From the IMG/VR virus record IMGVR_UViG_3300011187_000040, positions 1 through 29,861 of that record: a stretch of 29,861 bases of DNA; one strand, 5' to 3'. The stretch comes from a virus. The position numbers and the translations under genes were made by a program. The notes under the pieces are model-generated. The model made no database searches. It saw only the letters and a program-made list of their open reading frames with translations, and was not told the origin of the DNA. This document shows, in pieces, positions 1 to 21,129 of the stretch (positions are counted from its first letter, which is position 1; every line of letters starts with the position of its first letter).

Positions 1-61
1 GATTGGGGACGTAGCCACCGGGAAGGCCGTTGTAGTAGTGGTAGTGGATCAAGTCAGTCAC
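1..61 (-). CDS. Start of an unknown gene cut by the left edge
   Basis: Only the first 20 codons are in the window. A GTG start at 61-59 is preceded by a fair ribosome binding site (ACAGGAATCAC) and further up by the leader motif CACTACC (92-86) and a strong promoter (124-96). The visible protein begins VTDLIHYHYYNG and is rich in His and Tyr. I do not recognise it. The promoter and leader support a real gene; function cannot be judged from 20 residues. Confidence 0.6.
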   Translation of the reverse strand, partial: MTDLIHYHYYNGLPGGYVPN

Positions 62-95
62 CGTGATTCCTGTCGTGGTAGATGCGGTAGTGAGT

Positions 96-124
96 ACGCT
101 ACCGGACCTTGTCAAGTTTGTCAA
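96..124 (-). promoter_or_regulatory. Leftward sigma-70-type promoter, TTGACA-N17-TAGCGT
   Basis: On the minus strand, TTGACA (124-119) is followed after exactly 17 bases by TAGCGT (101-96). The same hexamers and spacing occur in two more copies at 919-947 and 1388-1416. Expected transcription start is near 89-90, right at the leader motif CACTACC. The -35 element contains the TGA stop of the gene at 121-255. Confidence 0.75.
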
Positions 125-255
125 GTCGAGTCAGAGTGAGTCTTCATGAGGCCGAAGGCGGAGACGGCGGCGAGGATGAGCCACGAGGCGTCGTGGACCC
201 CTGCCCCAACGCCCAGCACGAGGCCGATGAACATGAGGTAGCGGAGGAAGATCAT
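121..255 (-). CDS. Small membrane protein, 44 aa, unknown function
   Basis: ATG at 255-253, TGA at 123-121. The start overlaps the stop of the upstream 48-aa gene as ATGA, the usual coupling in this genome. The product is almost entirely hydrophobic: residues about 2-18 and 25-36 could each be a membrane segment, broken by VHDAS, with a polar tail ending in KTHSDST. No family is recognised. Its TGA stop lies inside the -35 hexamer of the next leftward promoter, so the gene ends exactly where a new transcription unit begins. A small phage membrane protein is the most that can be said. Confidence 0.6.
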   Translation of the reverse strand: MIFLRYLMFIGLVLGVGAGVHDASWLILAAVSAFGLMKTHSDST

Positions 256-398
256 GGTGCATACTCCGTGACGTGATCGGGGACGCGCATGTAAAGCGGG
301 TCGGCCATGCCGTCGTAGTCGTCCCGACCCACCCGCCCCGCCTCGCGGATCGCGTCGACGTCGTCAGCGAGTGGTGCGTAGGTCGTTGCGGTAGTCAT
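252..398 (-). CDS. Small acidic protein, 48 aa, unknown function
   Basis: ATG at 398-396 has a good ribosome binding site (GAAGGGCAG, six bases upstream) and the leader motif CCACTACC just before it (418-411). The product begins MTTATTYAPLADDVDAIREA and is charged, with several Asp and Arg and no membrane segment or metal site. Its TGA overlaps the ATG of the next gene by four bases. I recognise no family. The combination of leader motif, Shine-Dalgarno sequence and coupling makes it a real gene despite its size. Confidence 0.65.
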   Translation of the reverse strand: MTTATTYAPLADDVDAIREAGRVGRDDYDGMADPLYMRVPDHVTEYAP

Positions 399-433
399 GG
401 TCTGCCCTTCGGTAGTGGTGGTGGTCGTGCCTA

Positions 434-877
434 TCAGTTGTTTCCAAGCGACCCGCGACGGGCCATTGAGGTCCAGATTTGGCCACCGATAACGAGGTGG
501 TCGAGCAGGTTGACACCAAGGGTCTCGCCTGCCTTGGCGAGCCTGCGGGTCACTGCTTCGTCATCGGACGACGGCTCAGTGCTTCCGCTCGGATGGGTGT
601 GGCAGAGAACGATGGCCGCCGCCCCGTGCGTCAGAGCAGAGCGGTACACCTCACGCGGTGCCATGAAAGTGTGATCAACGCTGCCAAGGCTCACGACCTC
701 TGTAGTGATGAGGGCGTGCTTGGTGTCCAGCACGAGCATGAGGCAAACCTCGCGGTCAACCGGCATGTCACGCAGCACCTTGAAGAAAGCCGTTGCGGCC
801 TTCACTGGCGCGTCGATCACCGGCCTCGTCTCTACATATGCGCCGGGTGCTTCTCCGGCAAATGGGGCGTAACACAT
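434..877 (-). CDS. radC: RadC-like JAMM/MPN protein
   Basis: A 147-aa protein matching the RadC (JAB/MPN) domain. It carries the full metal-binding JAMM signature HTHPSG...SSDD (H-x-H-x7-S-x2-D), preceded by the usual hydrophobic strand (AAIVLCHTHPSG) and followed by a helix and LLDHLVIGG, a typical RadC C-terminal strand. RadC proteins of bacteria were once tied to DNA repair; the domain is a Zn-dependent peptidase fold whose substrate here is unknown. It lacks the N-terminal helix-hairpin-helix part of cellular RadC, as phage and mobile-element copies usually do. Start ATG 877 has AGAAAGG upstream, leader motif CCACTACC (903-896) and promoter 947-919, so it begins its own transcript. Confidence 0.85.
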   Translation of the reverse strand: MCYAPFAGEAPGAYVETRPVIDAPVKAATAFFKVLRDMPVDREVCLMLVLDTKHALITTEVVSLGSVDHTFMAPREVYRSALTHGAAAIVLCHTHPSGSTEPSSDDEAVTRRLAKAGETLGVNLLDHLVIGGQIWTSMARRGSLGNN

Positions 878-895
878 GATTTATGGCCTTTCTTT

Positions 896-952
896 GGTAG
901 TGGGGCGATGTGAGAGTAACGCTAGCACACTGTTTGTGAGTTGTCAAATCGG
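896..952 (-). repeat. 57-bp direct repeat, copy 1 (promoter plus leader motif)
   Basis: Identical to 1365-1421 except at one base (948 A, 1417 G). It contains a complete minus-strand promoter and the leader motif CCACTACC, so the repeat is a duplicated transcription/translation start unit placed before the RadC-like gene. The two copies are 469 bp apart in the same orientation. Confidence 0.9.
919..947 (-). promoter_or_regulatory. Leftward promoter of the RadC-like gene
   Basis: Minus strand TTGACA (947-942), 17-base spacer, TAGCGT (924-919), with the extended -10 bases TGC before TAGCGT. Expected start of transcription is near 912. The stop codon of the upstream 135-aa gene (946-944) is embedded in the -35 hexamer. 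Confidence 0.8.
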
Positions 953-1351
953 AGTCTCGGCCCCCTCCTCGACGGAGTCGAAGATTCGGTGCGTCTTCGG
1001 GCTCCACGACACCCTTTCGTGCAGCAGGGTCTTCTTTACGAACTGGAGTCGAGTCTTGCGACTCACGTTCGTCGTGAGCCCGATGTAGCGAGTGAGGTCG
1101 TCGGCGGTCGGGGCGAACGGCTGCCCCTTCACGGTGCAGCAGTGGTGCCCGATGGCAGCGAGCAGTCCTGCCCGCCAGACGAACTCCTCCACATCCCCCT
1201 TGTTCGGGATGCCGGGGAGGTCGACCGCGAGAGTGGTCCAGATGATCGCATCGAGGACAGCACCCTCGATGTCGGTGTAGGTGGCATCCTCGCCACGGGT
1301 CATGAGGTCAGCGTAGACCTCGGTATCTGCTGCGTTCCAATTGAGGCTCAT
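944..1351 (-). CDS. Unknown phage protein, 135 aa
   Basis: ATG at 1351-1349 has the strong site AAGGAGCC six bases upstream and the leader motif CCACTACC (1372-1365). The protein begins MSLNWNAADTEVYADL, has a helical-looking middle (AVLDAIIWTTLAVDL and FVWRAGLLAAIGHHCC) and a basic C-terminal part (NVSRKTRLQFVKK). The His-His-Cys-Cys cluster at about residues 69-72 is conspicuous but is not a complete metal site. I do not recognise a family. It is the first gene of the leftward early block and is driven by the promoter at 1416-1388. Confidence 0.7.
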   Translation of the reverse strand: MSLNWNAADTEVYADLMTRGEDATYTDIEGAVLDAIIWTTLAVDLPGIPNKGDVEEFVWRAGLLAAIGHHCCTVKGQPFAPTADDLTRYIGLTTNVSRKTRLQFVKKTLLHERVSWSPKTHRIFDSVEEGAETPI

Positions 1352-1364
1352 CGCGGCTCCTTAT

Positions 1365-1421
1365 GGTAGTGGGGCGATGTGAGAGTAACGCTAGCACACT
1401 GTTTGTGAGTTGTCAAGTCGG
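1365..1421 (-). repeat. 57-bp direct repeat, copy 2 (promoter plus leader motif)
   Basis: Same unit as 896-952 with a single mismatch. It lies before the 135-aa gene and forms the leftward half of a divergent promoter region whose rightward half is at 1453-1482. Confidence 0.9.
1388..1416 (-). promoter_or_regulatory. Leftward promoter of the 135-aa gene
   Basis: Minus strand TTGACA (1416-1411), 17-base spacer, TAGCGT (1393-1388), within the 57-bp repeat. It is divergent from the rightward promoter at 1453-1482, so 1352-1508 is a two-way control region. Confidence 0.8.
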
Positions 1422-1430
1422 CGTCTCCAA

Positions 1431-1466
1431 CTACTTGACGACAAAAGACTACTTGACGACAAGAGA
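1431..1466 (+). repeat. Tandem 18-bp repeat carrying TTGACG
   Basis: Two adjacent copies of CTACTTGACGACAARAGA (1431-1448, 1449-1466) with one mismatch. The second copy supplies the -35 of the rightward promoter. The first has no matching -10 at a proper distance, so the repeat may be a duplicated activator or repressor site. Confidence 0.7.
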
Positions 1467-1482
1467 CTCTAAATGGTAGAGT
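1453..1482 (+). promoter_or_regulatory. Rightward promoter, TTGACG-N18-TAGAGT with extended -10
   Basis: TTGACG (1453-1458), 18-base spacer, TAGAGT (1477-1482), preceded by TGG so that it reads TGGTAGAGT, an extended -10. A start near 1489 would give a leader opening with CCCCTACCC, the plus-strand variant of the leader motif. It should drive the small membrane gene at 1509. Confidence 0.65.
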
Positions 1483-1508
1483 AGTGAGCCCCTACCCGGA
1501 GAGAAGAC

Positions 1509-1679
1509 ATGAAGTTGCTCATCATCATCGGCGTCGTCGTGGCGGGTCGCTGGGCGTACCGCCGTGCCATGAACGAACGCGAGGCAGCGATACGGCTGCA
1601 CCCGTCCACCGTCGACCGCCTCATGGACGACGGGCGCGGCAGTGACAGGGGATGGGCGTTCACGGCTCTGAACCCGTAG
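1509..1679 (+). CDS. Small membrane-anchored protein, 56 aa
   Basis: ATG at 1509 follows the ribosome binding site GGAGAGAAG and leader motif CCCCTACCC (1489-1497). Residues 2-13 (KLLIIIGVVVAG) form a short hydrophobic N-terminal segment, too short for a classical lipoprotein signal; then RWAYRRAMNERE is strongly basic and the rest is polar. It is probably anchored in the membrane by its N-terminus. No family is recognised. A strong terminator follows at 1691, so it is a single-gene transcript under its own promoter, as expected for a tightly controlled early phage gene. Confidence 0.65.
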   Translation: MKLLIIIGVVVAGRWAYRRAMNEREAAIRLHPSTVDRLMDDGRGSDRGWAFTALNP

Positions 1680-1690
1680 AACGGCAAGAC

Positions 1691-1726
1691 GAGAGCCCCC
1701 GCCGGAAGAATTCGGCGGGGGCTCTC
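1691..1726 (+). terminator. Strong stem-loop terminator
   Basis: A perfect 14-bp inverted repeat, GAGAGCCCCCGCCG / CGGCGGGGGCTCTC, with an 8-base loop, follows the 56-aa gene by 11 bases. The downstream TTGT is a poor U-tract, common in high-G+C actinobacteria. As a near-perfect hairpin it may work from both sides. Confidence 0.8.
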
Positions 1727-1859
1727 TTGTGCCCACTACCACATGAGCAGCCGGTACACGGGATGACGCGGCGCTCTCCAAGGTAGCGAGTCCTTCCACT
1801 GCGGTCCAACCCCTCGCGCGGGGTGTCCGGAGAGGCTAGTGTAGCGCGTCCGCTACCGG
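1727..1859 (+). promoter_or_regulatory. Control region with leader motif and GTAGCG inverted repeat
   Basis: No convincing gene. It holds a leader motif CCACTACC (1733-1740) followed by a seven-codon reading frame (1743-1766, ATG to TGA) with no clear ribosome binding site; a half-site GGTAGCG (1782-1788); and a 16-bp inverted repeat GTAGCG-CGTC-CGCTAC (1841-1856) touching the next start codon. TAGTGT (1837-1842) could be a -10 but no good -35 precedes it. The inverted repeat is operator-like. Confidence 0.4.
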
Positions 1860-2087
1860 ATGGAGGGCGTCTTGGACGCCGTGACAGAGATGAACCTCGT
1901 GTTGGAGAGACTCCGCATGTTGGCAGGTCGGATCGAACGAGGGGAGCAGGCGCGCAAAGACAGGGACGCACTGTTCGTGGAGTGGTACGGCACGCTCCCC
2001 GGTGCTGTCATGGCAGATGCTGCGAACGTAACACGCACTCGACCGTACCAGATTCACAAGGAGTACATCAGTGTCTCTGACGACTGA
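1860..2087 (+). CDS. Small putative DNA-binding protein, 75 aa
   Basis: The protein has a long N-terminal helix with charged residues (VLERLRMLAGRIERGE) and a C-terminal stretch AVMADAANVTRTRPYQIHKE. The latter resembles the short helix-turn-helix proteins placed before replication genes in actinophages, though the match is weak. ATG 1860 has no upstream Shine-Dalgarno sequence; it sits directly after the inverted repeat 1841-1856, so translation may be nearly leaderless. ATG 1890 within the same frame is a possible alternative. The 3' end overlaps the primase start (GTG 2071) by 17 bases, and this gene also carries that start's AAGGAG site, so the two are coupled. It may regulate its own operon through the adjacent inverted repeat (inference). 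Confidence 0.6.
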   Translation: MEGVLDAVTEMNLVLERLRMLAGRIERGEQARKDRDALFVEWYGTLPGAVMADAANVTRTRPYQIHKEYISVSDD

Positions 2088-3873
2088 ATCCAGCCACGCA
2101 GACTGGGTAGACCACTACAACGAAATAGGTCTATCTACCGTCCCGATCACAGCGGCCAAGCGTACCGACATCACTTCGTGGCACGAGCGTCCGATCAATT
2201 CCTCCGATCTCGACTCCTACCACGCTCAATACTCACAGGGCGTAGGAGTTCGCTCCGGTCTCGGCTTCGTCATTCTCGACCTCGACTGTGATGAGGCAGT
2301 GCAGGTGGCGCCGGCCATTGTTCCGGAGTGGACGACGGCCATTGCTGGGCGAACGCGCCGACCGGGCACTCACTATTACTACCGATGCGACGACGTTCCA
2401 GACGGGGTCAAGAAGCGCGATCCGATCTCTGACGTAGTCAAGATTGAGGTCGAACAGTACGACGACGACGGCAACCTAGTTGGCCACAAGGAGAAGTTGC
2501 CTGCTCTGGTCGAATTGTTTGCTGACTTCCAGTACGTCGTCGCGCCTCCGACTACGACCTACATTCGCAAGGACGGGATGCCGGACACCTATATTTGGGA
2601 CCGTCCGTTGGAAAGCGTCAAGACGCTCCGATGGCAGGAGATCGTCACTGCCCACCACCTCATCGGCGCTGCCAGCCTGCTCATCCGCAACTACCCGCCG
2701 TCGGGCGCTCGTAACGAGGTGCTCCACGGGCTCTGGGATGTGATCTACGGGCGCAATCCCGGGTGGTGGAACGAGCACCACCTCAAGTTCTCCGACTTCG
2801 CCACCATGATCTGCGAGGCTGCCGAGGACAACAACTACGAGCGCCGGGAGGAGATCCGTATTCGTGCGGAGAGAGTGCGTGAGGGCGAGACGATCAAGAG
2901 CAGAGCGACGGTGCTGGGCACCGACGGTGCCAACGTGGCAGCGATCTCCAAGGCGCTCGACCTGCTGTTCGAGGTCATCCCTGCTGTTGGTGAAGAGGAG
3001 GAGACGCCTCCGGAAGTCGCCCCCAACTCGCGCCTCTGGCTACCGGGTGAGATCCAGTCAGCCAAGTTTCCGCCTATCGAGTTTGTGCTCGACAAGTTCG
3101 TCGTCCGCAACGTCGCTACGGCTCTCATCGGCAGGCGGGGCATCGGCAAGTCGTTCGTGACGTTCGACTGGGCGAAGCGCATGGCCCAGAAGGGTGAGCG
3201 CGTGCTCATCATGGACTATGAGAACGCCGACTGGATCGTGCAAGACAGGTTCACGGCGCTGGGTCTCGGCTCCGACCACTGGGTCGCACCGTGGATCAAT
3301 CCCCCAGTCAACATCATGAGGCCACAGGGCGTGTCGAGGCTGGCAGCGGTCATCGAGGAGCACGAGATCACGGTGGTCATCATCGACGCCTTCACCGATC
3401 TTGCTCACAAAGCCGGGGTGTCGATCAACGACAACCTAGAGATGGCTCAGATGACGACGCGGCTCAACGACATCCTCAACATGGGCATAACGCTCATCGT
3501 CCACGATCACAAGCCCGCCTCCAACGACGCGCGGCCGAAGGGTGCGGGCGAAAAGGAGAACCTGCTGCAAGTCATCTGGGACATCAACGAGGTCAAGCGG
3601 GATTCGATGAACTATCCGTGTCGGTTCGGCTCTCCAACCTCTGACGAGGGCATCTCACAGGGCGTGTCGGGCGCATTCACGATTTCACTGCTCAAGGATC
3701 GCACCGGGAGGCTGGGCGCGCACGGCTCTGCCCGCCACGTTCTCGCTGACTGCGCCACGGACAGCCCGGAGGTGGTCTTCGACTACCGGGACACCTACGA
3801 GCAGCGCAACGCGCTCGTGGAGGCTATGGGACGGTCCGGCGGCAGCGGGCGGAGCCTCAACGGGCTCTCGTGA
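2071..3873 (+). CDS. Bifunctional primase/polymerase-helicase fusion
   Basis: A 600-aa replication protein. Residues about 10-190 are a prim-pol domain (archaeo-eukaryotic primase fold): the acidic catalytic motif ILDLDCD places Asp at 70 and 72, and GTHYYYR places a conserved His at 101. A linker follows. Residues about 330-540 form a RepA/DnaB-type RecA-fold ATPase with Walker A GRRGIGKS (354-361) and Walker B VVIIDAF (Asp 439), then a likely sensor HDHKP. Such fusions prime and unwind the phage DNA. GTG 2071 is chosen for its ideal AAGGAG site seven bases upstream, inside the preceding gene. The C-terminus (GGSGRSLNG) is disordered. A hairpin follows, ending the unit. Confidence 0.88.
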   Translation: MSLTTESSHADWVDHYNEIGLSTVPITAAKRTDITSWHERPINSSDLDSYHAQYSQGVGVRSGLGFVILDLDCDEAVQVAPAIVPEWTTAIAGRTRRPGTHYYYRCDDVPDGVKKRDPISDVVKIEVEQYDDDGNLVGHKEKLPALVELFADFQYVVAPPTTTYIRKDGMPDTYIWDRPLESVKTLRWQEIVTAHHLIGAASLLIRNYPPSGARNEVLHGLWDVIYGRNPGWWNEHHLKFSDFATMICEAAEDNNYERREEIRIRAERVREGETIKSRATVLGTDGANVAAISKALDLLFEVIPAVGEEEETPPEVAPNSRLWLPGEIQSAKFPPIEFVLDKFVVRNVATALIGRRGIGKSFVTFDWAKRMAQKGERVLIMDYENADWIVQDRFTALGLGSDHWVAPWINPPVNIMRPQGVSRLAAVIEEHEITVVIIDAFTDLAHKAGVSINDNLEMAQMTTRLNDILNMGITLIVHDHKPASNDARPKGAGEKENLLQVIWDINEVKRDSMNYPCRFGSPTSDEGISQGVSGAFTISLLKDRTGRLGAHGSARHVLADCATDSPEVVFDYRDTYEQRNALVEAMGRSGGSGRSLNGLS

Positions 3874-3897
3874 CCCCTCCGTGAGTGGATAGGGGTT

Positions 3898-3933
3898 GCT
3901 CCGGTCCCCCCCGTAAGGTGAGAGGACCGGAGC
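3898..3933 (+). terminator. Stem-loop after the primase-helicase gene
   Basis: GCTCCGGTCC (3898-3907) pairs perfectly with GGACCGGAGC (3924-3933) around a 16-base loop. There is no U-tract. It lies in the 131-base gap between the primase-helicase and the next gene and probably terminates or attenuates transcription. Confidence 0.55.
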
Positions 3934-3956
3934 ATACCACATCCGAGGAGCGGTTC

Positions 3957-3965
3957 TGGTAGGGT
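3957..3965 (+). promoter_or_regulatory. Possible extended -10 promoter, TGGTAGGGT
   Basis: TGGTAGGGT closely matches the extended -10 of the rightward promoter at 1474-1482 (TGGTAGAGT). As there, the leader motif CCCCTACCC (3975-3983) and a ribosome binding site follow. No -35 is apparent. It would restart transcription after the hairpin at 3898-3933. Confidence 0.4.
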
Positions 3966-4004
3966 CGCTGGCGGCCCCTACCCCCTGTGAGATAGGAGAT
4001 CCTT

Positions 4005-4499
4005 GTGTACGAAGTGCAGACACCTCGTGGACCACTCAGAGTCGAGGCTCAGTACGTTCACCACGCCCAAAGGCTACTGGAAAGAGCGTTCAGTCGCATC
4101 GGTGGTACCCACGGTATCACGAGCGAGATGCTCGGGATGATTTGCGACTTTGCGTGTGACGAAGGCAACGAGGAGGCCATCAAGCGCAACTCGTATCGAG
4201 TGATGTGGCACCTCCGCAACGAGGTGCTCATCCGGTACCAGTCTCCGGCCGACATCCAGCGGTTCACTGTCGAGGGTGCGTTCGATCCGTTCACTCCTAA
4301 GTACCGGGAGATCCGTCACGACATGGTTCGGTACCTGTCAGAGTATCCGAACCCACGGTACAGCGCTGTGGCGAGCAAGTACAACTCATCCTCAGTATTT
4401 AAGAGGGTGCTCAATGATCTCAAGGCCGCGCAGATGGTTGATGTGTCCGGACGCGGCAAGAAGAAGCGCATCGTGGCGCTCAACTTGGAGAACGCATGA
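4005..4499 (+). CDS. Unknown replication-region protein with winged-helix-like end, 164 aa
   Basis: GTG 4005 follows ATAGGAGATCC and the leader motif CCCCTACCC. The protein is soluble. Its C-terminal 70 residues (IRHDMVRYLSEYPNPRYSAV, then a second helix and a strand ending GRGKKKRIVAL) have the pattern of a winged helix: a helix, a second helix with a Ser-rich turn, and a basic wing. The N-terminal half is helical and acidic. I do not recognise a named family. It overlaps the SNF2-type helicase gene by four bases (ATGA), so the two are co-translated and may act together, for example by directing the helicase to DNA. Confidence 0.65.
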   Translation: MYEVQTPRGPLRVEAQYVHHAQRLLERAFSRIGGTHGITSEMLGMICDFACDEGNEEAIKRNSYRVMWHLRNEVLIRYQSPADIQRFTVEGAFDPFTPKYREIRHDMVRYLSEYPNPRYSAVASKYNSSSVFKRVLNDLKAAQMVDVSGRGKKKRIVALNLENA

Positions 4500-5935
4500 G
4501 CATCCTCACACCTCTTATGCAGCACCAACGGCAGGGCGTCGAGTTCCTCATCTCGCACGAGGGTGGCGGCTTGCTCTGGGAGCCGGGCACCGGCAAGACG
4601 CTGACCGTGATCTCCTACCTCGACTACCTCGTGGACGTGCACGACAGGGCAGCGGTGCTCGTCACCGCCCCGCTCTCCGCCGTGGACACATGGCCGGACG
4701 AGATCGCCAAGCACCTCAACCTGCCCAACGTGCGGGTCACCGTGCTCACGGGCTCGGGCAAGAAGAAGATCGAGACACTCAACGATCTGGAGCCGCTCGA
4801 CCGTGGGCTCGACGTCATCGTGGTCAACCTCGACATCTTCTCCCAGTCTCACAAGTACACCTCATCTCAGACAGTCCGGGGCAAGTTCTGTGACGTGATC
4901 CGTAGATGGGGCTTCGACCTCATGGTTGTGGACGAGTCGCACCGAATTAAGGGGCACAACTCCAACATGAGCAGGGCCATCGGCTCCCTCGCTCGCTTCC
5001 TACCTCAACGCATTATTCTCACGGGCACGGTCGCACCACACAGCCCGCTCGACATCTTCGCACAGTGGAGGTTCCTCAACCCGGAGCGGTTCGGCACGCG
5101 CAAGGCTTCTTTCGAGGGCAGGTATGCGATCCTTGGAGGCTGGCACGGGAAGCAGGTCATCGGCTTTCAGAACCAGAAGGAACTCAACCGCAAGCGCAGC
5201 ATGGACTCAGTGGTCGTGCTCAAGAAGGACGCCCTCGACCTCCCGCCTGTGACCTCAACAACGCACCACGTCACGCTCACTCCGAAGGAGCGCAAGGCGT
5301 ACAACGATCTAGCCACGCACATGATGCTGGACGAGGGGCCGGACGGTGAGCCGTACATCTCGGCCAACGCTCTGACTCAGTGGCTCCGTCTTCGCCAACT
5401 CACCTCTGGTCATCTGACCGATGGTGATGCCGTCAAGCATCTGGGTGACAGCAAGATCAAGCACGCAGCCGACCTCGTATCGGACCTCGTCTCAGCCGGG
5501 CAGCAAGTGGTGGTGTTCGCTCACTTCGTGGACGACATTCGCCGCATGACTATTGCACTGGAAAAGTCTAAGATCAACGTCCAGATGATCTACGGGGCTA
5601 CGCCGGGAGAGGAGCGCCGTGACATCCGCAAGTCGTTCTACGATGGTGGCACGCAGGTCGTCGTTGCCCAGATGCGGACGGTGTCTCTCGCCATCAACGA
5701 GTTCGTCGTTGCAAATCACGCTGTGTACCTTTCGATGTCAGAGCGCCGGGACGACTACATCCAGTCCCGCGACAGGCTCATCCGCAAGGGGCAGGAGAAT
5801 CCTGTCACGCTGCATCACATGATCGTGCGGGACAGCATTGACGAGATCATCATGCAGGCTCACGCTGAAAAGGGCAGGCTGGAAGCCTTCATCCTCGCAC
5901 GACTCGACCAAATCACAAAGGGCATTGCCGCATGA
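4496..5935 (+). CDS. SNF2-family DNA helicase/translocase
   Basis: A 479-aa superfamily 2 ATPase. It opens with a Q-like LMQHQRQGVEFL, Walker A WEPGTGKT (28-35), the SNF2-type motif II DESH (146-149, DLMVVDESHRIK) and motif III ILTGT. The C-terminal lobe has motif V-like residues and motif VI QSRDRLIRKGQ, the SNF2/RapA form of Q-x-x-x-R-x-x-R-x-G-Q. The length is right for a minimal two-lobe phage enzyme with no accessory domain. It should track along duplex DNA, remodelling protein-DNA complexes or branched DNA. The gene overlaps its neighbours on both sides by ATGA, placing it in one operon with the winged-helix-like protein and the DNA polymerase. Confidence 0.9.
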   Translation: MSILTPLMQHQRQGVEFLISHEGGGLLWEPGTGKTLTVISYLDYLVDVHDRAAVLVTAPLSAVDTWPDEIAKHLNLPNVRVTVLTGSGKKKIETLNDLEPLDRGLDVIVVNLDIFSQSHKYTSSQTVRGKFCDVIRRWGFDLMVVDESHRIKGHNSNMSRAIGSLARFLPQRIILTGTVAPHSPLDIFAQWRFLNPERFGTRKASFEGRYAILGGWHGKQVIGFQNQKELNRKRSMDSVVVLKKDALDLPPVTSTTHHVTLTPKERKAYNDLATHMMLDEGPDGEPYISANALTQWLRLRQLTSGHLTDGDAVKHLGDSKIKHAADLVSDLVSAGQQVVVFAHFVDDIRRMTIALEKSKINVQMIYGATPGEERRDIRKSFYDGGTQVVVAQMRTVSLAINEFVVANHAVYLSMSERRDDYIQSRDRLIRKGQENPVTLHHMIVRDSIDEIIMQAHAEKGRLEAFILARLDQITKGIAA

Positions 5936-7773
5936 GTCACGCTCACTACCACAACGTCATGACAGACGAGGACTACAAGTCGTTCCTCCTGTGGATGGCG
6001 AAGTTGCGCGACCCGGTCGCGTTCGACATCGAGACGACGGGGCTGGATCACACAGAGCGGGGTGCGCAGATCCTCTCCGTGTCCTACACGACGACGGCTC
6101 CGGGTGAGGAGACGTGGGTCATACCACTCGGCCACTCGCACGGTTCGTGGGGCTACAAGTGGAGGCAGATGGCGCAGGAGATCGCTGTGTTCTCTCTCAG
6201 TCACGACCTCATCGCCCACAACGCACCGTTCGAGGTGGCATGGTTCCGCCAGCACACTGACGTAAACCTGTCAGACTCGATCTACTGGGACACCATGACG
6301 GTTGCCCACCTCCGCAATGAGAATGAGAGCAAGCGGCTCAAGAACAACGCCGCACACCTCATGGGTGGAGACTGGGGCATCGACGTGAAGGATGCGGCCC
6401 GCGTGCCGTGGTTCGATCTCGCGCCGTACAACGCACTGGACACCATCGCGACCGCCCGGCTGTACCACGAGCAGCGCCCCGCCCTGCCGCCCGCCCTGCT
6501 CGACCTGTACATGTCCACGGTGCGCCCTGCGCAGGCTGTTCTCACGCGCGTGAGCGCCACGGGGATGCCACTCGACCTCGACACCGCTCGCGCTGCTCTC
6601 CGCCACGCTCAGACACGCTCAGGCACCGCTGCCATGAACCTGCTGGCGCTGGCGGGGTACTACGGGCTCGATCCGGGTGACTATCCGACGCTCTCGTGGG
6701 AGGCGACGTCCAAGTGGTTCCTCGCCTTCACCGGGGCAGCGGTCGAGCACGGTGATCTCTATGTACAGGACACTACACCTTCTGGTCGTGCGTCGTGGGC
6801 CAGCGGGGTCCTCAACAGGCTGGCGCGCGAGGGCTACGGGGTGGCGCAGGAAATCCTCGACTACCGGGACGGGTCAAAGGAGGCCCAGTTCCTAGAGTCG
6901 TGGATCGACGCTGCGGACAGGGAGGCGCGGGTGCACGGCCAGTACCACGTCGCTCGTGTCAGGACGGGCCGGCTGTCCTCGTCGGACCCCAACATGCAGC
7001 AGGTCAAGCGCTCGCTCAAGCCTGTCTGGGCAGCGCCGCCGGGCTGGGAGTTCTGCGAGATTGACTACTCCCAGATCGAGATGCGAGTCATGGCGGAGTA
7101 CATCCACCGGGACGTGCTGCCGGACAACCCCCTGCTCATGGCCTACTTGGAGGGGCTCGACCTGCACCGGATGAACGCCACGCTGGCGACCGGGGGGAGC
7201 GTCGAGGACGTGACGCCCGGCGAGCGTCAAGCCGGGAAGGCCATCGGCTTCGGCTTCCTGTTCGGCATGGGGCACCGCAAGTTCGTGGCGTACGCGGAGG
7301 ACACCTACGGGGTCAAGTTCACAGAGAGCGAGGCGCGCGAGATCCGGACCCGCTTCTTCCAGCGGTGGGAGGGGCTGGAGGAGTGGCACATTCACCAAGC
7401 GAGACTCGTGCAGAGTGGCGGCTTCGTGACTAACATCTTCGGGAGGCGACGGCGGCTGCCGGATGCATTCAGCACGGACGACTTCGTCCGGGCGGGCGCG
7501 ATCCGACAGGCGATCAACAGCCCGATCCAGTCCACCGCCAGCGATTTCATGCTGCGAGGGCTGACCCAGATTGATCGACGTGAGGACATCCAGATCGTCG
7601 GGACCGTGCACGACTCGGTACTACTACTTGTGCGGTCAGCGCACGATGCAGAGTCTGCGGCTTGCGATCTGCTGACCAGTTCGGATATAGTGTCTGTACC
7701 GATCGAGGTTGACATCAGCCTCGGCCCCCGTTGGGGGGAGTATCACACAACCCGCTCACTAAGGAGCACATGA
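5932..7773 (+). CDS. polA: DNA polymerase I-like family A polymerase with 3'-5' exonuclease
   Basis: A 613-aa replicative polymerase without the 5'-3' nuclease domain. Exonuclease motifs: FDIETTGLD (Asp 32, Glu 34), AHNAPFE, and YNALD for Exo III. Polymerase motifs: A EIDYSQIEMRV (catalytic Asp 378), B on the O-helix RQAGKAIGFGFLFG (Arg 432, Lys 436, Phe 440) and C VGTVHDS (His 560, Asp 561). The O-helix differs from the usual form: Gly at 439 where Asn is common, and Phe at 444 where Tyr is usual. Start ATG 5932 overlaps the helicase stop and has AAAGGG upstream; ATG 5959 is an inferior alternative. It copies the phage genome. Confidence 0.93.
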   Translation: MSHAHYHNVMTDEDYKSFLLWMAKLRDPVAFDIETTGLDHTERGAQILSVSYTTTAPGEETWVIPLGHSHGSWGYKWRQMAQEIAVFSLSHDLIAHNAPFEVAWFRQHTDVNLSDSIYWDTMTVAHLRNENESKRLKNNAAHLMGGDWGIDVKDAARVPWFDLAPYNALDTIATARLYHEQRPALPPALLDLYMSTVRPAQAVLTRVSATGMPLDLDTARAALRHAQTRSGTAAMNLLALAGYYGLDPGDYPTLSWEATSKWFLAFTGAAVEHGDLYVQDTTPSGRASWASGVLNRLAREGYGVAQEILDYRDGSKEAQFLESWIDAADREARVHGQYHVARVRTGRLSSSDPNMQQVKRSLKPVWAAPPGWEFCEIDYSQIEMRVMAEYIHRDVLPDNPLLMAYLEGLDLHRMNATLATGGSVEDVTPGERQAGKAIGFGFLFGMGHRKFVAYAEDTYGVKFTESEAREIRTRFFQRWEGLEEWHIHQARLVQSGGFVTNIFGRRRRLPDAFSTDDFVRAGAIRQAINSPIQSTASDFMLRGLTQIDRREDIQIVGTVHDSVLLLVRSAHDAESAACDLLTSSDIVSVPIEVDISLGPRWGEYHTTRSLRST

Positions 7774-7774
7774 C

Positions 7775-8137
7775 ATGGCAACTGCCACCAAGAACACCAC
7801 GCCCGACCTCTCCAGTCTGAACCTCCCCGGCGTCGGCAAGGTCTCCGCCGCCAAGGAGGTCCCCGGCGTCACCCGTGGGGAGCAGGCATCCGTCTACAGC
7901 CCGCTGTTCGCGGCGGCGCACGACATGCCGCTGACGGAGGACGGCACCCACGAGGCCATCGTCCTCAACGGGTTCGAGGACAACGCCTCGGCCGCCACCA
8001 AGGCGGGCTACATCCGGCGCATCTCCTCGGATGACATCGAGGTGAAGCAGCGCGGCAAGGACGTCTACGTCCGCGCGCTGACCGCCAGTGAGGTCACCGC
8101 CGCACGCAAGGCGTCGAAGGCCAAGGCTGACGCCTGA
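7775..8137 (+). CDS. Unknown protein after DNA polymerase, 120 aa
   Basis: ATG 7775 follows the polymerase stop by one base and has the strong site AAGGAG (7761-7766) inside the end of the polymerase gene. The protein has a Ser/Pro-rich start, a middle that predicts as beta strands (EAIVLNGFEDN, KAGYIRRISSDDIEVKQRG) and a basic Ala/Lys tail (AARKASKAKADA) that could contact nucleic acid. I recognise no family. Its position between polymerase and nuclease genes suggests a DNA-metabolism accessory role (inference). A hairpin follows at 8150. Confidence 0.7.
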   Translation: MATATKNTTPDLSSLNLPGVGKVSAAKEVPGVTRGEQASVYSPLFAAAHDMPLTEDGTHEAIVLNGFEDNASAATKAGYIRRISSDDIEVKQRGKDVYVRALTASEVTAARKASKAKADA

Positions 8138-8149
8138 GCCGCACCGGGG

Positions 8150-8168
8150 GAGGGGCCGTGAGCCTCTC
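8150..8168 (+). terminator. Hairpin in a G-rich/C-rich tract
   Basis: GAGGGGC-CGTGA-GCCTCTC forms a 7-bp stem with one G-T pair. An alternative longer pairing is GGGGGAGGG with CCCTCCCCC further out. It lies 12 bases after the 120-aa gene and before a leader motif, so it probably ends or attenuates the polymerase transcript. No U-tract. Confidence 0.4.
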
Positions 8169-8213
8169 CTCCCTCCCCCCACCACTACCACGCCGTAAAT
8201 CTGGAGACTCAAC

Positions 8214-8315
8214 ATGAACACGGAGCAGGCGGCTGCGGGACTCATCGACTCCATCATCGCACGCCGTGCGCGTGACACCAAGATCCGTGAGGCACTTGAC
8301 GAGATCGAGTCCTGA
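8214..8315 (+). CDS. Very small acidic/basic helical protein, 33 aa
   Basis: ATG 8214 has CTGGAG ten bases upstream and the leader motif CCACTACC at 8182-8189. The predicted product is one amphipathic helix with a basic middle (IIARRARDTKIRE) and an acidic end (ALDEIES). The leader motif, ribosome binding site and helix-like composition support it as a real mini-gene, but it could also be a leader peptide for the Cas4-like gene downstream. No function is assigned. Confidence 0.5.
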   Translation: MNTEQAAAGLIDSIIARRARDTKIREALDEIES

Positions 8316-8334
8316 GACACGGCGAGCCGGGCTG

Positions 8335-8343
8335 TGCTACACT
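8335..8343 (+). promoter_or_regulatory. Possible extended -10 promoter, TGCTACACT
   Basis: TG-C-TACACT is a good extended -10; the region 17-19 bases upstream has only a weak -35 (TGAGAC). A start near 8350 would give a leader with the motif CCACTACC (8365-8372) and the site AAGGAGGGG before the Cas4-like gene. Confidence 0.45.
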
Positions 8344-8388
8344 GGGCGGTCCGGCCTCCGCCGTCCACTACCACGCAAAGGAGGGGTC

Positions 8389-9486
8389 ATGACTGACCTC
8401 TGGAACAACAGTCGTTTCTCGACGCTCCGGTCCTGCGAGCAGAAGTTCGTGTACCGCTACGTCGAGGGACTCAACACTCCGACGAATCCGACCGACGAGA
8501 AGTTGCTGCTGGGCTCGTGGTTCCACGCGCTCATGTACGCACACGGGCTCCGACAGGGTATGGTGCAGGAGTCACTCCTGCACCCGGTGCCCGACACGAT
8601 GAACCTCGGCTTCGACTTCATCGACCCGATGCCAGTGCCGACAGAGTACGACGGCACACTCGTGACGCAGGTGCAGGACTACCTCACGTCACAGTTCTTG
8701 GCCAAGGTTGGCGGCATGTCCCCTGACCTCGACGCCATCCCTGAGCGTGCGTGGTTCCTGTTCGACCGCTACGTCGCCCGATGGTTTACGCAAGGCAGCC
8801 TGCTCACCGACAAGGTGCTGGCCGTCGAGTACGAGTGGCAGCGCACCGACGAGGCATCGGGCATCACCTACGTCGGGAAGATCGACAAGATCATCCTTCG
8901 TGAAGACGGGCTCTTGATCCTGCGTGACTACAAGACGACGGGCCAGAAGCCGACCACCGACTTCCGACTCACGAACAGTCAACTGCACTTGTACGCATGG
9001 GGCGTCGCACCGTTCCTCGACATGCATGGCCTGTCGGTCGACGCTGTCGAGTACGACTACGCCATCACTCGTGAGCCCCGCGTTCGTCTCACGAAGGCGG
9101 GTGCTCTCTACAAGAACCAGTCCGTCATGGATTACCGGGCTCTTGAGTATCTGCTCAGTGAAGAACTGCGAGCGTCGGATCACGACCACGCCTACGACGA
9201 CGAGCGGTTCGCTGACCACTACGAGGCTGCGCGCGAGGAGGGGGACGAGAAGTTCTTCTCCCGCAACCTCCTGCCGATCAACGAGACGGTCATCATTCGC
9301 CTGCTGGACGAGCAGGTGCAGTTGGTCGACCGGGCCACCCGGCTCGACAACGGCTCCGCGCTGCCCATCGCAGCGCCGGGCCGCGCGTGCGGGTGGTGCG
9401 AGTACAGCGATCTCTGCGTGGCGGAGATGTACGGGAACGACGCCACTCCCATCCGTGAGTTCTACCAGATCGTGAGCGACACATGA
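8389..9486 (+). CDS. Cas4/RecB-type FeS-cluster exonuclease
   Basis: A 365-aa PD-(D/E)XK nuclease. The catalytic core shows GKIDKI (Asp 166) and LRDYKTT (Asp 180, Lys 182), the D...(D/E)xK pattern of the RecB/Cas4 family. Four cysteines, C16 near the N-terminus and C334, C337 and C343 at the end (CGWCEYSDLC), match the split [4Fe-4S] site of Cas4 and AddB nucleases. The start ATG 8389 has an excellent AAGGAGGGG site and the leader motif CCACTACC; longer in-frame starts lack both. It likely resects DNA ends for recombination by the Sak4-like ATPase two genes on. No CRISPR array is present, so a spacer-acquisition role is not supported. Confidence 0.88.
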   Translation: MTDLWNNSRFSTLRSCEQKFVYRYVEGLNTPTNPTDEKLLLGSWFHALMYAHGLRQGMVQESLLHPVPDTMNLGFDFIDPMPVPTEYDGTLVTQVQDYLTSQFLAKVGGMSPDLDAIPERAWFLFDRYVARWFTQGSLLTDKVLAVEYEWQRTDEASGITYVGKIDKIILREDGLLILRDYKTTGQKPTTDFRLTNSQLHLYAWGVAPFLDMHGLSVDAVEYDYAITREPRVRLTKAGALYKNQSVMDYRALEYLLSEELRASDHDHAYDDERFADHYEAAREEGDEKFFSRNLLPINETVIIRLLDEQVQLVDRATRLDNGSALPIAAPGRACGWCEYSDLCVAEMYGNDATPIREFYQIVSDT

Positions 9487-9827
9487 GTACCCTCCCCTAC
9501 TCGTGCCTGCTCCTCGACTGCGAATGGAAGCACATCACGGGTTCGGCCAGCAAGCCCGCCGATACCGAAGCGACTCTCTGGGTTCATCTCAGTGTTCACC
9601 GAGTCGAAGAGTGGGCGGCCACCGTCACGACCCTCGCCAAGTTGGTCCTCATGAACTCTGTGGAGACGGACTCCGGCTGCGGCTGTTGCGCTGGCCCTGA
9701 CATGTGCTCGTACTGCGGCGAGAAGTGGTACTTCAATTCTAATTCTCGGGAGTACAACTACGTCATTGCACACGAACTCAACTGTATAACCGTCCAACTG
9801 GGCGGGCCTGTATCGGAGACACGCTGA
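9483..9827 (+). CDS. Cys/His-rich unknown protein, 114 aa
   Basis: The start overlaps the nuclease stop (ATGA). The protein has seven cysteines and scattered histidines: CLLLDC near the N-terminus, then a dense cluster CGCCAGPDMCSYC at about residues 60-72, which could bind one or two zinc ions, and a late AHELNC. The pattern suggests a zinc-stabilised small domain. I do not recognise a family. Translational coupling places it with the nuclease and the RecA-fold ATPase, so a role in the same DNA-processing pathway is possible but unproven. Confidence 0.65.
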   Translation: MSTLPYSCLLLDCEWKHITGSASKPADTEATLWVHLSVHRVEEWAATVTTLAKLVLMNSVETDSGCGCCAGPDMCSYCGEKWYFNSNSREYNYVIAHELNCITVQLGGPVSETR

Positions 9828-9931
9828 TGGAACCCTACGTTGTAGTTATCAACAACCTGCTGTTCTACGGATTCCTCGCCTTCGTGGTGTGGGTCATGTA
9901 CGGACGCAACGACAACGGAGATGACGAATGA
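9827..9931 (+). CDS. Single-pass membrane mini-protein, 34 aa
   Basis: ATG 9827 overlaps the stop of the previous gene (TGATG), and its own TGA overlaps the next ATG (ATGA), so it is coupled on both sides. Residues about 5-24 (VVVINNLLFYGFLAFVVWVM) form one clear membrane helix, followed by a charged tail YGRNDNGDDE. A membrane protein inside a recombination operon is unexpected. It has no recognised family. Confidence 0.6.
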   Translation: MEPYVVVINNLLFYGFLAFVVWVMYGRNDNGDDE

Positions 9932-10707
9932 GCCTGCTCGGAGACATCCGCAACCAACCACGACAGGCTGACCACGCTCGCGTGCTCATCCACGGGCAGC
10001 CCGGCACCGGGAAGACGACCCTCGCCGGAACCATCGCAGAGACGGGCCTCACGCTCTACCTGTACGTCAAGGGCGAGGAGGGCATCGGCTCCCTGTACGG
10101 CACAGACCACGACGAGAACCTCGTGATTCACCAGTTGTCTGGAATCCCAGAGATGGAGTTGCTGTACTACGAACTCCTCAAGGGTGACCACGACTACAAC
10201 GCCGTGGTACTCGACTCCGTGTCCGCCCTACAGACGATGTGGAAGAAGTACCTCCTGCGCCTGCCGATGGACGCCCCTGCCAAGGAGCGCCCGGCCACCG
10301 ACTTCGCTTTCTGGGGATCGCTGGCCGACGGGTTCACCGACCTGTTCACGTTCTGGTACGGGCTCGCATCTCACACGGCCAAGAAGCCGATCCACGTCGT
10401 CATGACGAGCCAGACCAAGGCTATCGATGACGCGGCAGGGGACAGCAAGATGCAGCCGGATCTCCACAAGGGTCCGCTGGCGCCTGCCGTCTCTCGCTCC
10501 GACCAGATTCTCTACACGCACATGATGGACGACCCAGATGACTGGGATTCTCAGAAGCACGTAGTGCGTGTCAAGCCCTCTTCGTCTATCGTGGCGAAGA
10601 CTCGATGCTCCCCTGCGGTGGCGGACAAGATCCCCTCTGTCATGGGAGTGCAGAACCGCGTCACCCTTCTCAAGTACCTCTCGGTGCTGGGTGTCGCCGG
10701 GGTCTAA
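9928..10707 (+). CDS. Sak4-like RecA-fold AAA ATPase (putative annealing/recombination)
   Basis: A 259-aa P-loop protein with Walker A HGQPGTGKTT (22-31) and Walker B AVVLDSVS (Asp 96). Then come VMTSQTKA, typical of the motif after Walker B in this AAA_24/Sak4 group, and a C-terminal part rich in basic residues. Sak4 proteins are short RecA/Rad51 relatives that promote single-strand annealing in phages, usually with a cognate SSB. The next gene encodes an SSB-like protein, which supports the assignment. Members of this family are often annotated only as a phage nucleotide-binding protein. It overlaps the preceding gene by four bases. Confidence 0.82.
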   Translation: MSLLGDIRNQPRQADHARVLIHGQPGTGKTTLAGTIAETGLTLYLYVKGEEGIGSLYGTDHDENLVIHQLSGIPEMELLYYELLKGDHDYNAVVLDSVSALQTMWKKYLLRLPMDAPAKERPATDFAFWGSLADGFTDLFTFWYGLASHTAKKPIHVVMTSQTKAIDDAAGDSKMQPDLHKGPLAPAVSRSDQILYTHMMDDPDDWDSQKHVVRVKPSSSIVAKTRCSPAVADKIPSVMGVQNRVTLLKYLSVLGVAGV

Positions 10708-10761
10708 TCCTAGACCTCATCCGCTAAGTGCGCGAACAACCACGCACAGGAAGACAGAACA

Positions 10762-11232
10762 ATGGCAGACACGAAGATGGACCTGACGGGGCACACGCCC
10801 CGCTTCGGACGCCGACTCAATCCGGGGAACTACCTCGTGGTGGTCGACGCTGTGGAGTACAACGAGGAGGCGCCCAAGGGTCAGTCCCTGCGGTTCACGT
10901 TCAAGAGCGTCGAGGGCGAGAGCGAGGGCGGCACCGTTGCTGCCACGCTCTACATCATCAACGACAACTTCACGGGGTCCAAGGGCCACCGGGGTGCCAC
11001 GCTCGACAACTGGTTCCACCTGCTTGAGGCCGTTGGCTTCAAGCCGGGGAAGTTCGACGCCGTGAAGATCGGCGACCAGATGGTCGGCAAGCGTCTGGGC
11101 GTGGAGGTCGTGAACTCCGACCCGGTGGGTCCGGAGAGCAAGATCTACGCGAACGTCAACTCGTTCTTCCCGGCCTCCGCGATGGGGGACGAGTCGCAGG
11201 ACGAGAACGACGACGAGACGGGCCTCGCCTAA
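10762..11232 (+). CDS. Putative single-stranded DNA-binding protein, 156 aa
   Basis: The N-terminal 115 residues have alternating strands (NYLVVVDAVEYN, LRFTFKSVE, AATLYIINDNF, RLGVEVVNSD), as in the OB-fold or DUF669-type phage SSBs. The C-terminus is a long acidic tail (GDESQDENDDETGLA), the usual protein-interaction tail of SSBs. It follows the Sak4-like gene, the standard pairing. ATG 10762 has AGGAAG eleven bases upstream. It lacks a conserved motif that would settle the family, so the call rests on tail, size and neighbours. Its stop overlaps the start of the VRR-NUC gene by one base (TAATGG). Confidence 0.65.
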   Translation: MADTKMDLTGHTPRFGRRLNPGNYLVVVDAVEYNEEAPKGQSLRFTFKSVEGESEGGTVAATLYIINDNFTGSKGHRGATLDNWFHLLEAVGFKPGKFDAVKIGDQMVGKRLGVEVVNSDPVGPESKIYANVNSFFPASAMGDESQDENDDETGLA

Positions 11233-11534
11233 TGGCACGCACCGGACCTGAGACACGTCTCGTGAAGCGCATCAAGCGTGCCATCGAGGAACGCCTTGGG
11301 TCCGGTGCGTTCGTCTTCAAGGTTCACGGAGGCCCGTTCCAACAGGCGGGCCTCCCTGACCTCATCGGCTGTGTCAACGGGCTGTTCATCGCCCTAGAGG
11401 TGAAGCACCCGGACCAGTCTCATCCGGTCAGCAAGATCCAGCAGCACATCATCGACCGCATCACCGCAGCAGGCGGAACCGCTGCCGTGGTGGAATCCGT
11501 CGAGGACGCGCTGTACGTTCTGGGTCTCGACTAA
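11232..11534 (+). CDS. VRR-NUC domain nuclease
   Basis: A 100-aa stand-alone VRR-NUC protein. Signature elements in order: PETRLVKRIKRAIEE helix, GGPFQQAGLPDLIG with the metal-binding Asp 43, then IALEVKHP with Glu 56 and Lys 58, and QQHIIDRITAAGG. The family is a PD-(D/E)XK branch found in FAN1 and in small phage proteins that cut branched DNA such as Holliday junctions. It would resolve intermediates made by the Sak4/SSB pair or debranch DNA before packaging. It is the last protein gene before the tRNA. Confidence 0.88.
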   Translation: MARTGPETRLVKRIKRAIEERLGSGAFVFKVHGGPFQQAGLPDLIGCVNGLFIALEVKHPDQSHPVSKIQQHIIDRITAAGGTAAVVESVEDALYVLGLD

Positions 11535-11539
11535 CTCAC

Positions 11540-11613
11540 GCCCCCGTAGCCCAACTGGCAGAGGCGTGCGTTTCAAGAACGCATAGTTGTGAGTTCGACT
11601 CTCACCGGGGGTA
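11540..11613 (+). tRNA. tRNA with anticodon CAA (Leu codon UUG), short variable arm
   Basis: A complete cloverleaf. Acceptor GCCCCCG/CGGGGGT (first pair G-U) with discriminator A at 11613; D arm GCC/GGC with GG in the loop; anticodon stem TGCGT/ACGCA with loop TTCAAGA (CAA at 11574-11576); variable loop of five bases; T arm GTGAG/CTCAC with loop TTCGACT. CCA is not encoded. By anticodon it is tRNA-Leu(CAA), but bacterial Leu tRNAs have a long variable arm and this is a class I body, so the charged amino acid is uncertain. UUG codons occur in the replication genes, for example at 2497 and 2515. Confidence 0.9.
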
Positions 11614-11615
11614 CT

Positions 11616-11693
11616 ATGTTCGTCTTTATAGCAGGGGTTGTAGTAGGCGCGACGCCTCACGTTGACCCCACGACACAAGAGGACGACGCATGA
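11616..11693 (+). CDS. Tiny hydrophobic peptide, 25 aa
   Basis: ATG 11616 begins three bases after the tRNA, and the TGA overlaps the next ATG by four bases. The product starts MFVFIAGVVVGA, a short membrane-like segment, and ends in an acidic tail. The only ribosome-binding-like sequence (GGGGG) lies in the tRNA acceptor stem. It may be a real coupling peptide for the gene at 11690 or just a chance frame. Confidence 0.35.
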   Translation: MFVFIAGVVVGATPHVDPTTQEDDA

Positions 11694-11932
11694 GCGACAC
11701 ACGCTGGTGCAAGAACTGCAACGGTTACGGCAACCATTCCACCGCTTGGTGTCATGGGCCGATTCACCAACCTCAACCTGAGCCGGTTGTCTCCGACGCG
11801 ATGATTGTCGCCTTCCAGCAAGCACACTACGACGCCTACGGCGGATGCGACCCCGAGTGTCCCTTCTTCAGCGCCGAAGACGTAGCGCACTCCCTCGCTG
11901 CCGCGCTCAGGGCGCAGGCATGTGACGCATGA
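11690..11932 (+). CDS. Small putative zinc-binding protein, 80 aa
   Basis: The N-terminal 25 residues hold CKNCNGYGNH...WCH, a CxxC followed by His and a second Cys-His: a likely zinc knuckle. The rest is an acidic helical module (EPVVSDAMIVAFQQAHYDA ... ALRAQA). The same module type ends the protein at 13239-13535, where 19 bases are identical (11902-11920 and 13505-13523). Small zinc proteins with this helical tail are common and unassigned in actinophages. The start ATG 11690 has AGAGG upstream. Its TGA overlaps the next ATG. Confidence 0.65.
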   Translation: MSDTRWCKNCNGYGNHSTAWCHGPIHQPQPEPVVSDAMIVAFQQAHYDAYGGCDPECPFFSAEDVAHSLAAALRAQACDA

Positions 11933-12309
11933 GCACACACACCCACCGGGAGATCGTCCCCGGCTGCTTCCGCTGAGACATCGGCAAGGACGAGACGGAC
12001 GCTGCCCTTGACCGGCTGGTGCGAATCAGCGAAGAACTGGGCCTGTACGACCTCGCTGCGAATCTGACCGACCGACTCAACACCGTTGAATGCGACGCGC
12101 TCACGGATGACGTGGCGCCCACCGACAAGGAGCAGACCGATGACCGTCGCCGCCTCATGGGCGCTCGTCGCCGCCGGCGGCTGGCTCCTCGGCATCCACC
12201 GGTGGTGCCCCCAAGCCGGCTGCGGCCGCCTCATCCCCACCGCCCTCACCTCCGGCAACTCCGTCCGGTGGGCGCGTGCTTCGCGCACCGACAAGGAGCA
12301 GACCGATGA
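11929..12309 (+). pseudogene. Small CxxC gene interrupted by an in-frame TGA
   Basis: ATG 11929 overlaps the upstream stop (ATGA) and encodes MSTHTHREIVPGCFR. Then TGA (11974-11976), then the same frame continues DIGKDETDAALDRLVRISEE and on to PTDKEQTDD at 12144. The TGA stands where a Cys would complete C-F-R-C, a CxxC pair, so a TGC-to-TGA change is the simplest reading. Alternatives are UGA readthrough, or a shorter protein from GTG 12019. Beyond 12144 the frame runs on through the GC-rich segment as an Arg-rich run (LMGARRRRR) to 12309; that part looks non-natural and is explained by an inserted segment at the 25-bp repeat. Confidence 0.55.
12120..12144 (+). repeat. 25-bp repeat / translation-start cassette, copy 1
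   Basis: The sequence from C12120 through GACAAGGAGCAGACCGATGAC is identical to 12286-12310. It encodes the C-terminal TDKEQTDD of the upstream frame and at the same time supplies AAGGAG and the ATG (12140) of the next gene. Degenerate copies are at 12495-12516 and 12921-12940. Confidence 0.9.
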
Positions 12310-14632: not shown

Positions 14633-14634
14633 GG

Positions 14635-15336: not shown

Positions 15337-15353
15337 TGCGTTCTCTTTCCCAA

Positions 15354-16436: not shown

Positions 16437-16439
16437 AGG

Positions 16440-21115: not shown

Positions 21116-21129
21116 GGGTGTCCTGTCGG

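Follow-up and report, generated by a model that had tools for sequence, protein, structure and literature searches.

We analysed a virus record of 29,861 bases (IMG/VR record IMGVR_UViG_3300011187_000040; "the window" hereafter means this whole stretch at its full length), in which a short motif, C[AC]CTACC and once CGCTACC, stands in sense orientation in front of ten early genes, one of them in an overlapping record, 19-31 nucleotides (nt) 5′ of the start codon and upstream of the Shine-Dalgarno (SD) sequence. The first 12,440 bases of the window carry genes for RadC-like, primase-like, helicase, DNA polymerase, Cas4-type exonuclease, Sak4-like and SSB-like proteins and align end to end with IMG/VR record 3300035034_000835 (G001, 30,402 bases), with 8 mismatches (99.9% identity), none of them inside a motif copy. 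The isolates closest by DNA polymerase and terminase are phages infecting the Actinobacteria Gordonia and Rhodococcus.

The initial annotation had reported a recurring leader motif before the starts of about ten genes, and all the sites that it listed were present; precisely, the octamers noted at 1489-1497 and 3975-3983 run over 1489-1496 and 3975-3982, the site placed at 92-86 is TCACTACC at 93-86, and the gene noted as starting at 1860 was called here from TTG 1872. On the minus strand, TCACTACC at 86..93 precedes the gene starting at GTG 61, its CACTACC beginning 3 nt past a TAGCGT -10-like hexamer and lying inside the dyad GGTAGTGAGTACGCTACC (86-103), and the same gene holds an extra sense copy, CCACTACC at 40..47, with the 7-mer core beginning 15 nt into the reading frame. 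CCACTACC is also found at 411..418, before the gene starting at ATG 398, which follows the RadC-like gene after a gap of 36 nt, at 896..903, before the RadC-like gene itself (start ATG 877), and at 1365..1372, before the gene starting at ATG 1351; the last two leaders are two copies of one 64-nt promoter-leader cassette, the second of which lies at 1364-1427 (97% identity).

On the plus strand, CCCCTACC at 1489..1496 precedes the gene starting at ATG 1509, with CCCTACC beginning 7 nt past TAGAGT, and CCCCTACC at 3975..3982 precedes the gene starting at GTG 4005 and is the right arm of GGTAGGG (3958-3964) ... CCCTACC. CCACTACC is present at 8182..8189, in a 77-nt gap with no promoter match before the gene starting at ATG 8214, and at 8365..8372, before the exonuclease gene (start ATG 8389, PHROG 1218), with TGTGCTACACT upstream of it by eye. 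The variant CGCTACC at 1851..1857 lies inside the dyad GTAGCG-CGTC-CGCTAC; the start of its gene is most likely TTG 1872, and GGAGGG may be the SD there, in which case CGCTACC precedes it as in the other leaders. The tenth leader copy is in G001, at reverse-complement position 16370 before the start at 16347. An intergenic CCACTACC at 1733..1740 comes right after a perfect inverted repeat of 14 nt (1691-1726) and is followed by just a 7-codon open reading frame (1743-1766, by eye). Three sense copies inside called frames, beginning at +11, +12 and +15, were spotted afterwards, namely the one at 40..47, TCACTACC at 5943..5950, where the core 7-mer starts 12 nt inside the frame of the DNA polymerase (start 5932), and one at G001 15784.

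For the statistics, we called 64 genes with a simple script in the window and in the part of G001 upstream of it, and we considered as gapped leader that of any gene with an upstream gap of at least 30 nt (28 of the 64). For the RadC-like gene the caller chose GTG 820, and the start was moved by hand to 877; unmoved, there is one motif leader fewer. In the window, YCMCTACC occurred 12 times against 1.76 expected, a count reached by none of 100 shuffles. Among all the 7-mers in the 50 nt upstream of starts CACTACC ranked first, on par with SD words, with 7 of 64 leaders (14 copies in total on both strands; p = 5e-8 uncorrected and about 9e-4 once corrected for the 16,384 words). C[AC]CTACC, with 18 copies in total, was present in sense in 9 leaders and in antisense in 2 of the 64 (0.52 expected), and with any base allowed at position 2 these counts were 10 and 4, respectively. 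All nine sense leaders are gapped ones, hence 9 of 28 gapped leaders, where dinucleotide shuffles gave a mean of 0.41 and a maximum of 4 (2000 rounds); since the shuffles stay far below 9, leader composition is not the explanation of the motif count. The commonest 7-mer of shuffled gapped leaders reached at most 5 (500 rounds), against 7 for CACTACC. In this phage, leader-like positions were occupied by 9 of 18 motif copies and by 0 of 17 copies of the reversed control, and the three rearranged control words gave 4/10, 1/23 and 2/8. That the motif should be commoner upstream of starts than elsewhere was accordingly borne out.

The nine C[AC]CTACC leader copies begin at -31 to -19, and about 1-14 nt (by eye) separate the motif from the SD. 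In the early block, from the start at G001 16347 to the start at window 8389, 10 of 12 gapped leaders carry the motif, including CGCTACC, and the remaining two have near forms ahead of the SD, ATCTACC before the G001 start 17481 and CACTATC before the G001 start 16987. The motif is found in 0 of 16 gapped leaders outside this block, whose limits were set after the sites were known, and in none of the 50-nt stretches upstream of 30 virion- and lysis-module genes. Two earlier suggestions are thereby upheld: the motif marks early and replication genes, to which it is confined, and it is separate from the SD, before which its sense copies lie and whose core it does not contain.

The motif genes had also been taken to be mostly the first of transcription units. 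This stands for five of the ten leaders, which follow a TTGAC-N16-18-TANNNT match; the other five have no such match, the starts 1872, 4005 and 8389 showing at best an extended -10 by eye, and the starts 398 and 8214 no promoter either by pattern match or by eye. In the window and the upstream part of G001, this pattern was matched 9 times against 0.96 in base-shuffled sequence, and all nine matches precede early genes; across window 1-9000, a general scan for promoters returned 3 sites, where 1.3 were expected. After the nine matches, the exact motif follows in five, 3-16 nt past the -10, and near forms follow in two. The other two (G001 starts 15299 and 14582) are followed by a different leader common to both; these alternative sequences read CGCTTGACTCCAAACAACAGGACAGAAAC and CGGCTCGACTCCAAATGACAGGACAGAAAC on the reverse complement of G001, and with them the phage has one more leader that recurs.

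The five exact copies beginning 3-16 nt past a promoter-like -10 would fit an asymmetric DNA operator, in which a phage regulator binds CNCTACC, or a dyad GGTAGNG...CNCTACC, over early promoter starts and shuts them off, like the stoperators and operators of other Actinobacteria phages. G001 encodes one Arc-like and one WhiB-like protein, and a repressor would be expected to act on a contiguous early block. Two similar 20-nt dyads whose arms are 4 nt apart (87-106 and 1841-1860, sharing 85% of their 20 nt) are joined, by eye, by looser ones at 1475-1496 and 3958-3982; however, an inverted GGTAG or GTAG half-site is present in four of the ten leaders and, by eye, lacking from the other six, and GGTAG is often the -10 hexamer itself, a possible source of the dyads. 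In the five promoter-matched leaders the motif is always downstream of the -10, and copies also lie in the gaps with no promoter match (starts 398 and 8214) and a few nt into reading frames. Cluster A stoperators are short asymmetric repressor sites repeated in short intergenic regions, with another sequence and a genome-wide distribution that includes structural genes, unlike the motif, which is upstream of 0 of 30 virion- and lysis-module genes. We consider the operator the main rival explanation, although an unlikely one.

The sense orientation, and the presence of the motif in early leaders both with and without a promoter match, would also suit another control site borne by the transcript, for antitermination or RNA processing, at which a factor loads or cuts at CACUACC. 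The gene-less copy right behind the perfect inverted repeat (1691-1740) points the same way. Against it, no second common element was seen beside the motif in the leaders, terminator-like sites in window 1-9000 were not above chance (1 found, 3.9 expected), and the sole above-threshold Rfam match was a tRNA; of the explanations considered here we find this one the least probable.

One informative relative was available, IMG/VR 3300023049_000088 (G009, 35,925 bases), which was found by a scan with a three-sequence DNA polymerase alignment. It has the same gene order, with protein identities to the window of 55% for DNA polymerase, 59% for helicase, 51% for exonuclease and 65% for the Sak4-like protein. 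CMCTACC has 5 copies in G009 vs 24 of the reversed control, and one CGCTACC lies 53 nt ahead of a start, just beyond the counted stretch. At the same place its gapped early leaders are C/A-rich, with an A+C fraction of 0.71 (n = 19) vs 0.60 for its ungapped early genes (n = 9). The top leader 6-mer, ACACAA, is present in 9 of 44 genes (p = 1.6e-11 vs the genome), but shuffles of the 19 leaders reach 8, and for CACAACA, observed in 7 of 19, they give a mean of 2.02 and a maximum of 7; since the shuffles nearly match these counts, the enrichment in G009 is largely composition. The early genes of G009 at L153 3567-3923 and 3997-4599 are on the plus strand and their orthologues at window 944-1351 and G001 16436-16987 on the minus strand, so the orientation of the early block with respect to the replication genes is reversed between the two phages.

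The only other carrier of the motif that was found is G001, with its 8 mismatches in 12,440 nt, and no relative of intermediate distance was found by the DNA polymerase alignment scans of IMG/VR and bacterial genomes or by a degenerate pattern from a 34-amino-acid protein, which was matched in IMG/VR just by G001 and G009 and in no bacterial genome. The reading frame of this protein (window 9827-9931) is 94% identical to L153 13407-13511, where the neighbouring proteins are 51-65% identical, which would reflect either recent exchange or strong conservation of this small protein. Against phage records, megablast of window 1-12000 and tblastn of the 600-amino-acid primase-like protein gave no match, and all the matches of the DNA polymerase, exonuclease, helicase and RadC-like proteins were below 60% identity; single-protein scans of IMG/VR returned only the near-identical G001. 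The 80 loci from the alignment scan of bacterial genomes were rejected as relatives, as they look like chromosomal DNA polymerase genes (titles, 25-33% identity). As far as one relative can show, the motif appears to mark this lineage only.

A general phage leader signal was rejected, because a promoter-motif-SD pattern was matched in 49 IMG/VR stretches, one of them this phage, vs 95 for the reversed-motif control; a start codon followed by at least 25 open codons was present in 40 of the 49 and, among the matches listed for the control (80 of 95), in 71 of 80. In 82 other phage loci (from the DNA polymerase scan, plus two isolates; 1.39 Mb) leader-like copies were at background, 29 of 291 for the motif and 44 of 534 for the control, compared with 9 of 15 and 0 of 3, respectively, in L001 (G001). 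The 80 bacterial loci, which total 1.53 Mb and by their titles are mostly from Actinobacteria, gave no sign of a host signal, with 10 of 170 leader-like copies for the motif and 26 of 490 for the reversed control. Three unrelated IMG/VR contigs, L054, L009 with L024 (one contig) and L031 (by eye), hold two promoter-CACTACC-SD-ATG leaders each, which would be either recurring leaders of their own or chance. A possible pairing of ACUACC with a conserved 16S rRNA segment was dropped as an explanation, as a 6-nt rRNA match is expected by chance.

The larger number of control stretches in IMG/VR (95 vs 49) and the G009 word CACAACA, within reach of shuffling, would agree with a motif that is a by-product of C/A-rich leaders and of promoter-leader cassettes spread by duplication, its letters having no role. 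The leaders at 903 and 1372 are in fact one repeated cassette; but counting this pair once still leaves 8 motif leaders against the maximum of 4 in shuffles of this phage's own leaders, and beyond the 64-nt pair and the two 20-nt dyads no longer repeat common to the leaders was found in window 1-2100. We regard the by-product explanation as rather improbable.

For a motif that is enriched, sense-oriented, placed ahead of the SD, restricted to gapped early leaders and absent from the one informative relative, we favour, with a probability of roughly 0.45, a lineage-specific mRNA leader element of early genes that acts at translation initiation. From orientation and position we infer its presence in the mRNA, the step that it affects and any binding partner. 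The 5′ leader of early messages would carry CACUACC (or CCCUACC) just upstream of the SD, where it would serve the translation initiation of genes unable to rely on coupling with an upstream gene, either by keeping the SD region single-stranded and offering a landing place to the 30S subunit or by being read by a phage or host factor. The sense orientation, the proximity to the SD, the gaps with and without a promoter match (two motif leaders, of starts 398 and 8214, lie in gaps without one) and the absence from coupled genes all point to such an element for fresh translation starts. The C/A-rich leaders that G009 has in this position suggest a common need for an open leader poor in G and U, and the excess of CACTACC over composition in this phage suggests an additional, lineage-specific reading of the letters.

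Folding predicted with the leader 5′ end set by us at 8 nt before the motif agrees with this reading, the motif coming out 0.54-0.88 unpaired in 9 of 10 leaders. Mean folding energies were -10.7 for motif leaders (n = 10), -11.9 for early gapped leaders without the motif (n = 12) and -13.5 for early ungapped leaders; these predicted energies do not decide the mechanism.

Several observations weigh against a translational leader element. Its distance from the SD is not constant. In two leaders it begins 3 and 7 nt past a -10-like hexamer, so the RNA may begin at or inside the motif there. For the leader of gene 1509 the prediction has the motif paired (0.07 unpaired), and motif leaders show no clear reduction of folding compared with early gapped leaders that lack it. 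When the pattern is loosened (7-mer, SD-like word and ATG or GTG anywhere), CACTACC comes only joint third to sixth, with 7 matches vs 9 for CGACCTC, and one rearranged control word is leader-like in as many as 4 of its 10 copies. Finally, the expectation that the motif would recur at orthologous starts of relatives failed in G009, where the orthologues of the motif-bearing starts (genes 944-1351 and 8389-9486) gave 0 of 2 and C[ACG]CTACC was present in 0 of 19 gapped early leaders.

Recurrent start-associated sequences are reported in phages of clusters K, EC, EF, EG and EI, with a function described as unknown. In the part of PMC7302621 concerned with cluster EC Microbacterium phages, an 18-bp asymmetric repeat, TAGaCTATaGGTgTaAgC, is described in 12 similarly oriented copies, which lie in small gaps between genes, before the ribosome binding site and 21-30 bp ahead of the start codon; five copies are in or beside the structural gene region, it recurs in each cluster genome, and its function is given as unknown. 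Like that repeat, the motif is asymmetric, in sense and before the SD, at a slightly wider range (-31 to -19); unlike it, as far as that description goes, the motif is shorter and of another sequence and is upstream of 0 of 30 virion and lysis genes. The one other carrier found, G001, is 99.9% identical, and no genome of intermediate distance turned up for comparison. The 18-bp sequence TAGaCTATaGGTgTaAgC was absent, by eye, from the leaders of this phage.

The start-associated sequences (SAS) of cluster K mycobacteriophages, with which the motif had been compared, are described in an excerpt of PMC3203893, which also names the stoperators of cluster A mycobacteriophages, as 13 bp long, containing AGGAG and 3-7 bp from the start, asymmetric and nearly always in one orientation, at non-structural genes with large upstream gaps and with a suspected role in translation initiation. 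An SAS-like motif is noted for cluster EF phages (part of PMC7302621), SAS abundance varies by lineage, with fewer in K4 and none in a K8 phage (part of PMC12699233), and in Adephagia promoters are located within extended SAS (part of PMC11373665). Like the SAS of clusters K and EF so described, the motif is asymmetric, mainly in sense (9 vs 2 antisense of 64) and at non-structural genes, all nine of them gapped. Unlike them, it has 7-8 bp, is without the AGGAG core of the SD and stands ahead of the SD, with onset at -31 to -19 instead of 3-7 bp; and, where SAS are conserved across related phages, often at genes of the same families, in the one relative, G009, it is missing from both orthologous starts and from all 19 gapped early leaders. 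Its place is comparable to that of published start-associated repeats; SAS themselves sit at the ribosome binding site. Judged by its letters and position, the motif is not a cluster K SAS; its position is of the EC kind, with the cluster EC repeat as the closest published analogue, and it is a further example of a loose start-associated group.

Outside the early region, window 13335-29861 is an HK97-type virion module whose terminase resembles that of Rhodococcus phages. G001 and G009 have the replication genes of the window with another terminase (59% identical between the two) and a portal-sized protein, and adjoining these two genes each encodes a giant protein, of 2195 amino acids in G001 (L003:5652-12239) and 2356 amino acids in G009 (reverse complement of L232, 7771-14841), with identity of just 28-34%, piecewise; the G001 protein had no match in PHROG or Pfam. 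The switch to the HK97-type module comes after 194 nt that match the end of the G009 record at 98.5% identity, and at 13.5-15.0 kb the GC content drops to 0.578. It is possible that the window is a mosaic phage, or else a chimera of the assembly. A tRNA-Leu (CAA) gene is at 11540-11614.

To the known kinds of start-associated sequences the motif adds a shorter element, clearly apart from the SD. It may be, although we hold this to be quite improbable, that each lineage tags its early leaders with a short sequence of its own, CACUACC in this lineage and another in G009, and that the tag is read by a factor coded by the phage, or by a ribosome that the phage has altered, which thereby favours the phage's own messages. 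The sister phage G009 has largely the same replication genes and different leaders, which makes the two a pair suited to telling whether the letters matter or only a C/A-rich, open leader.

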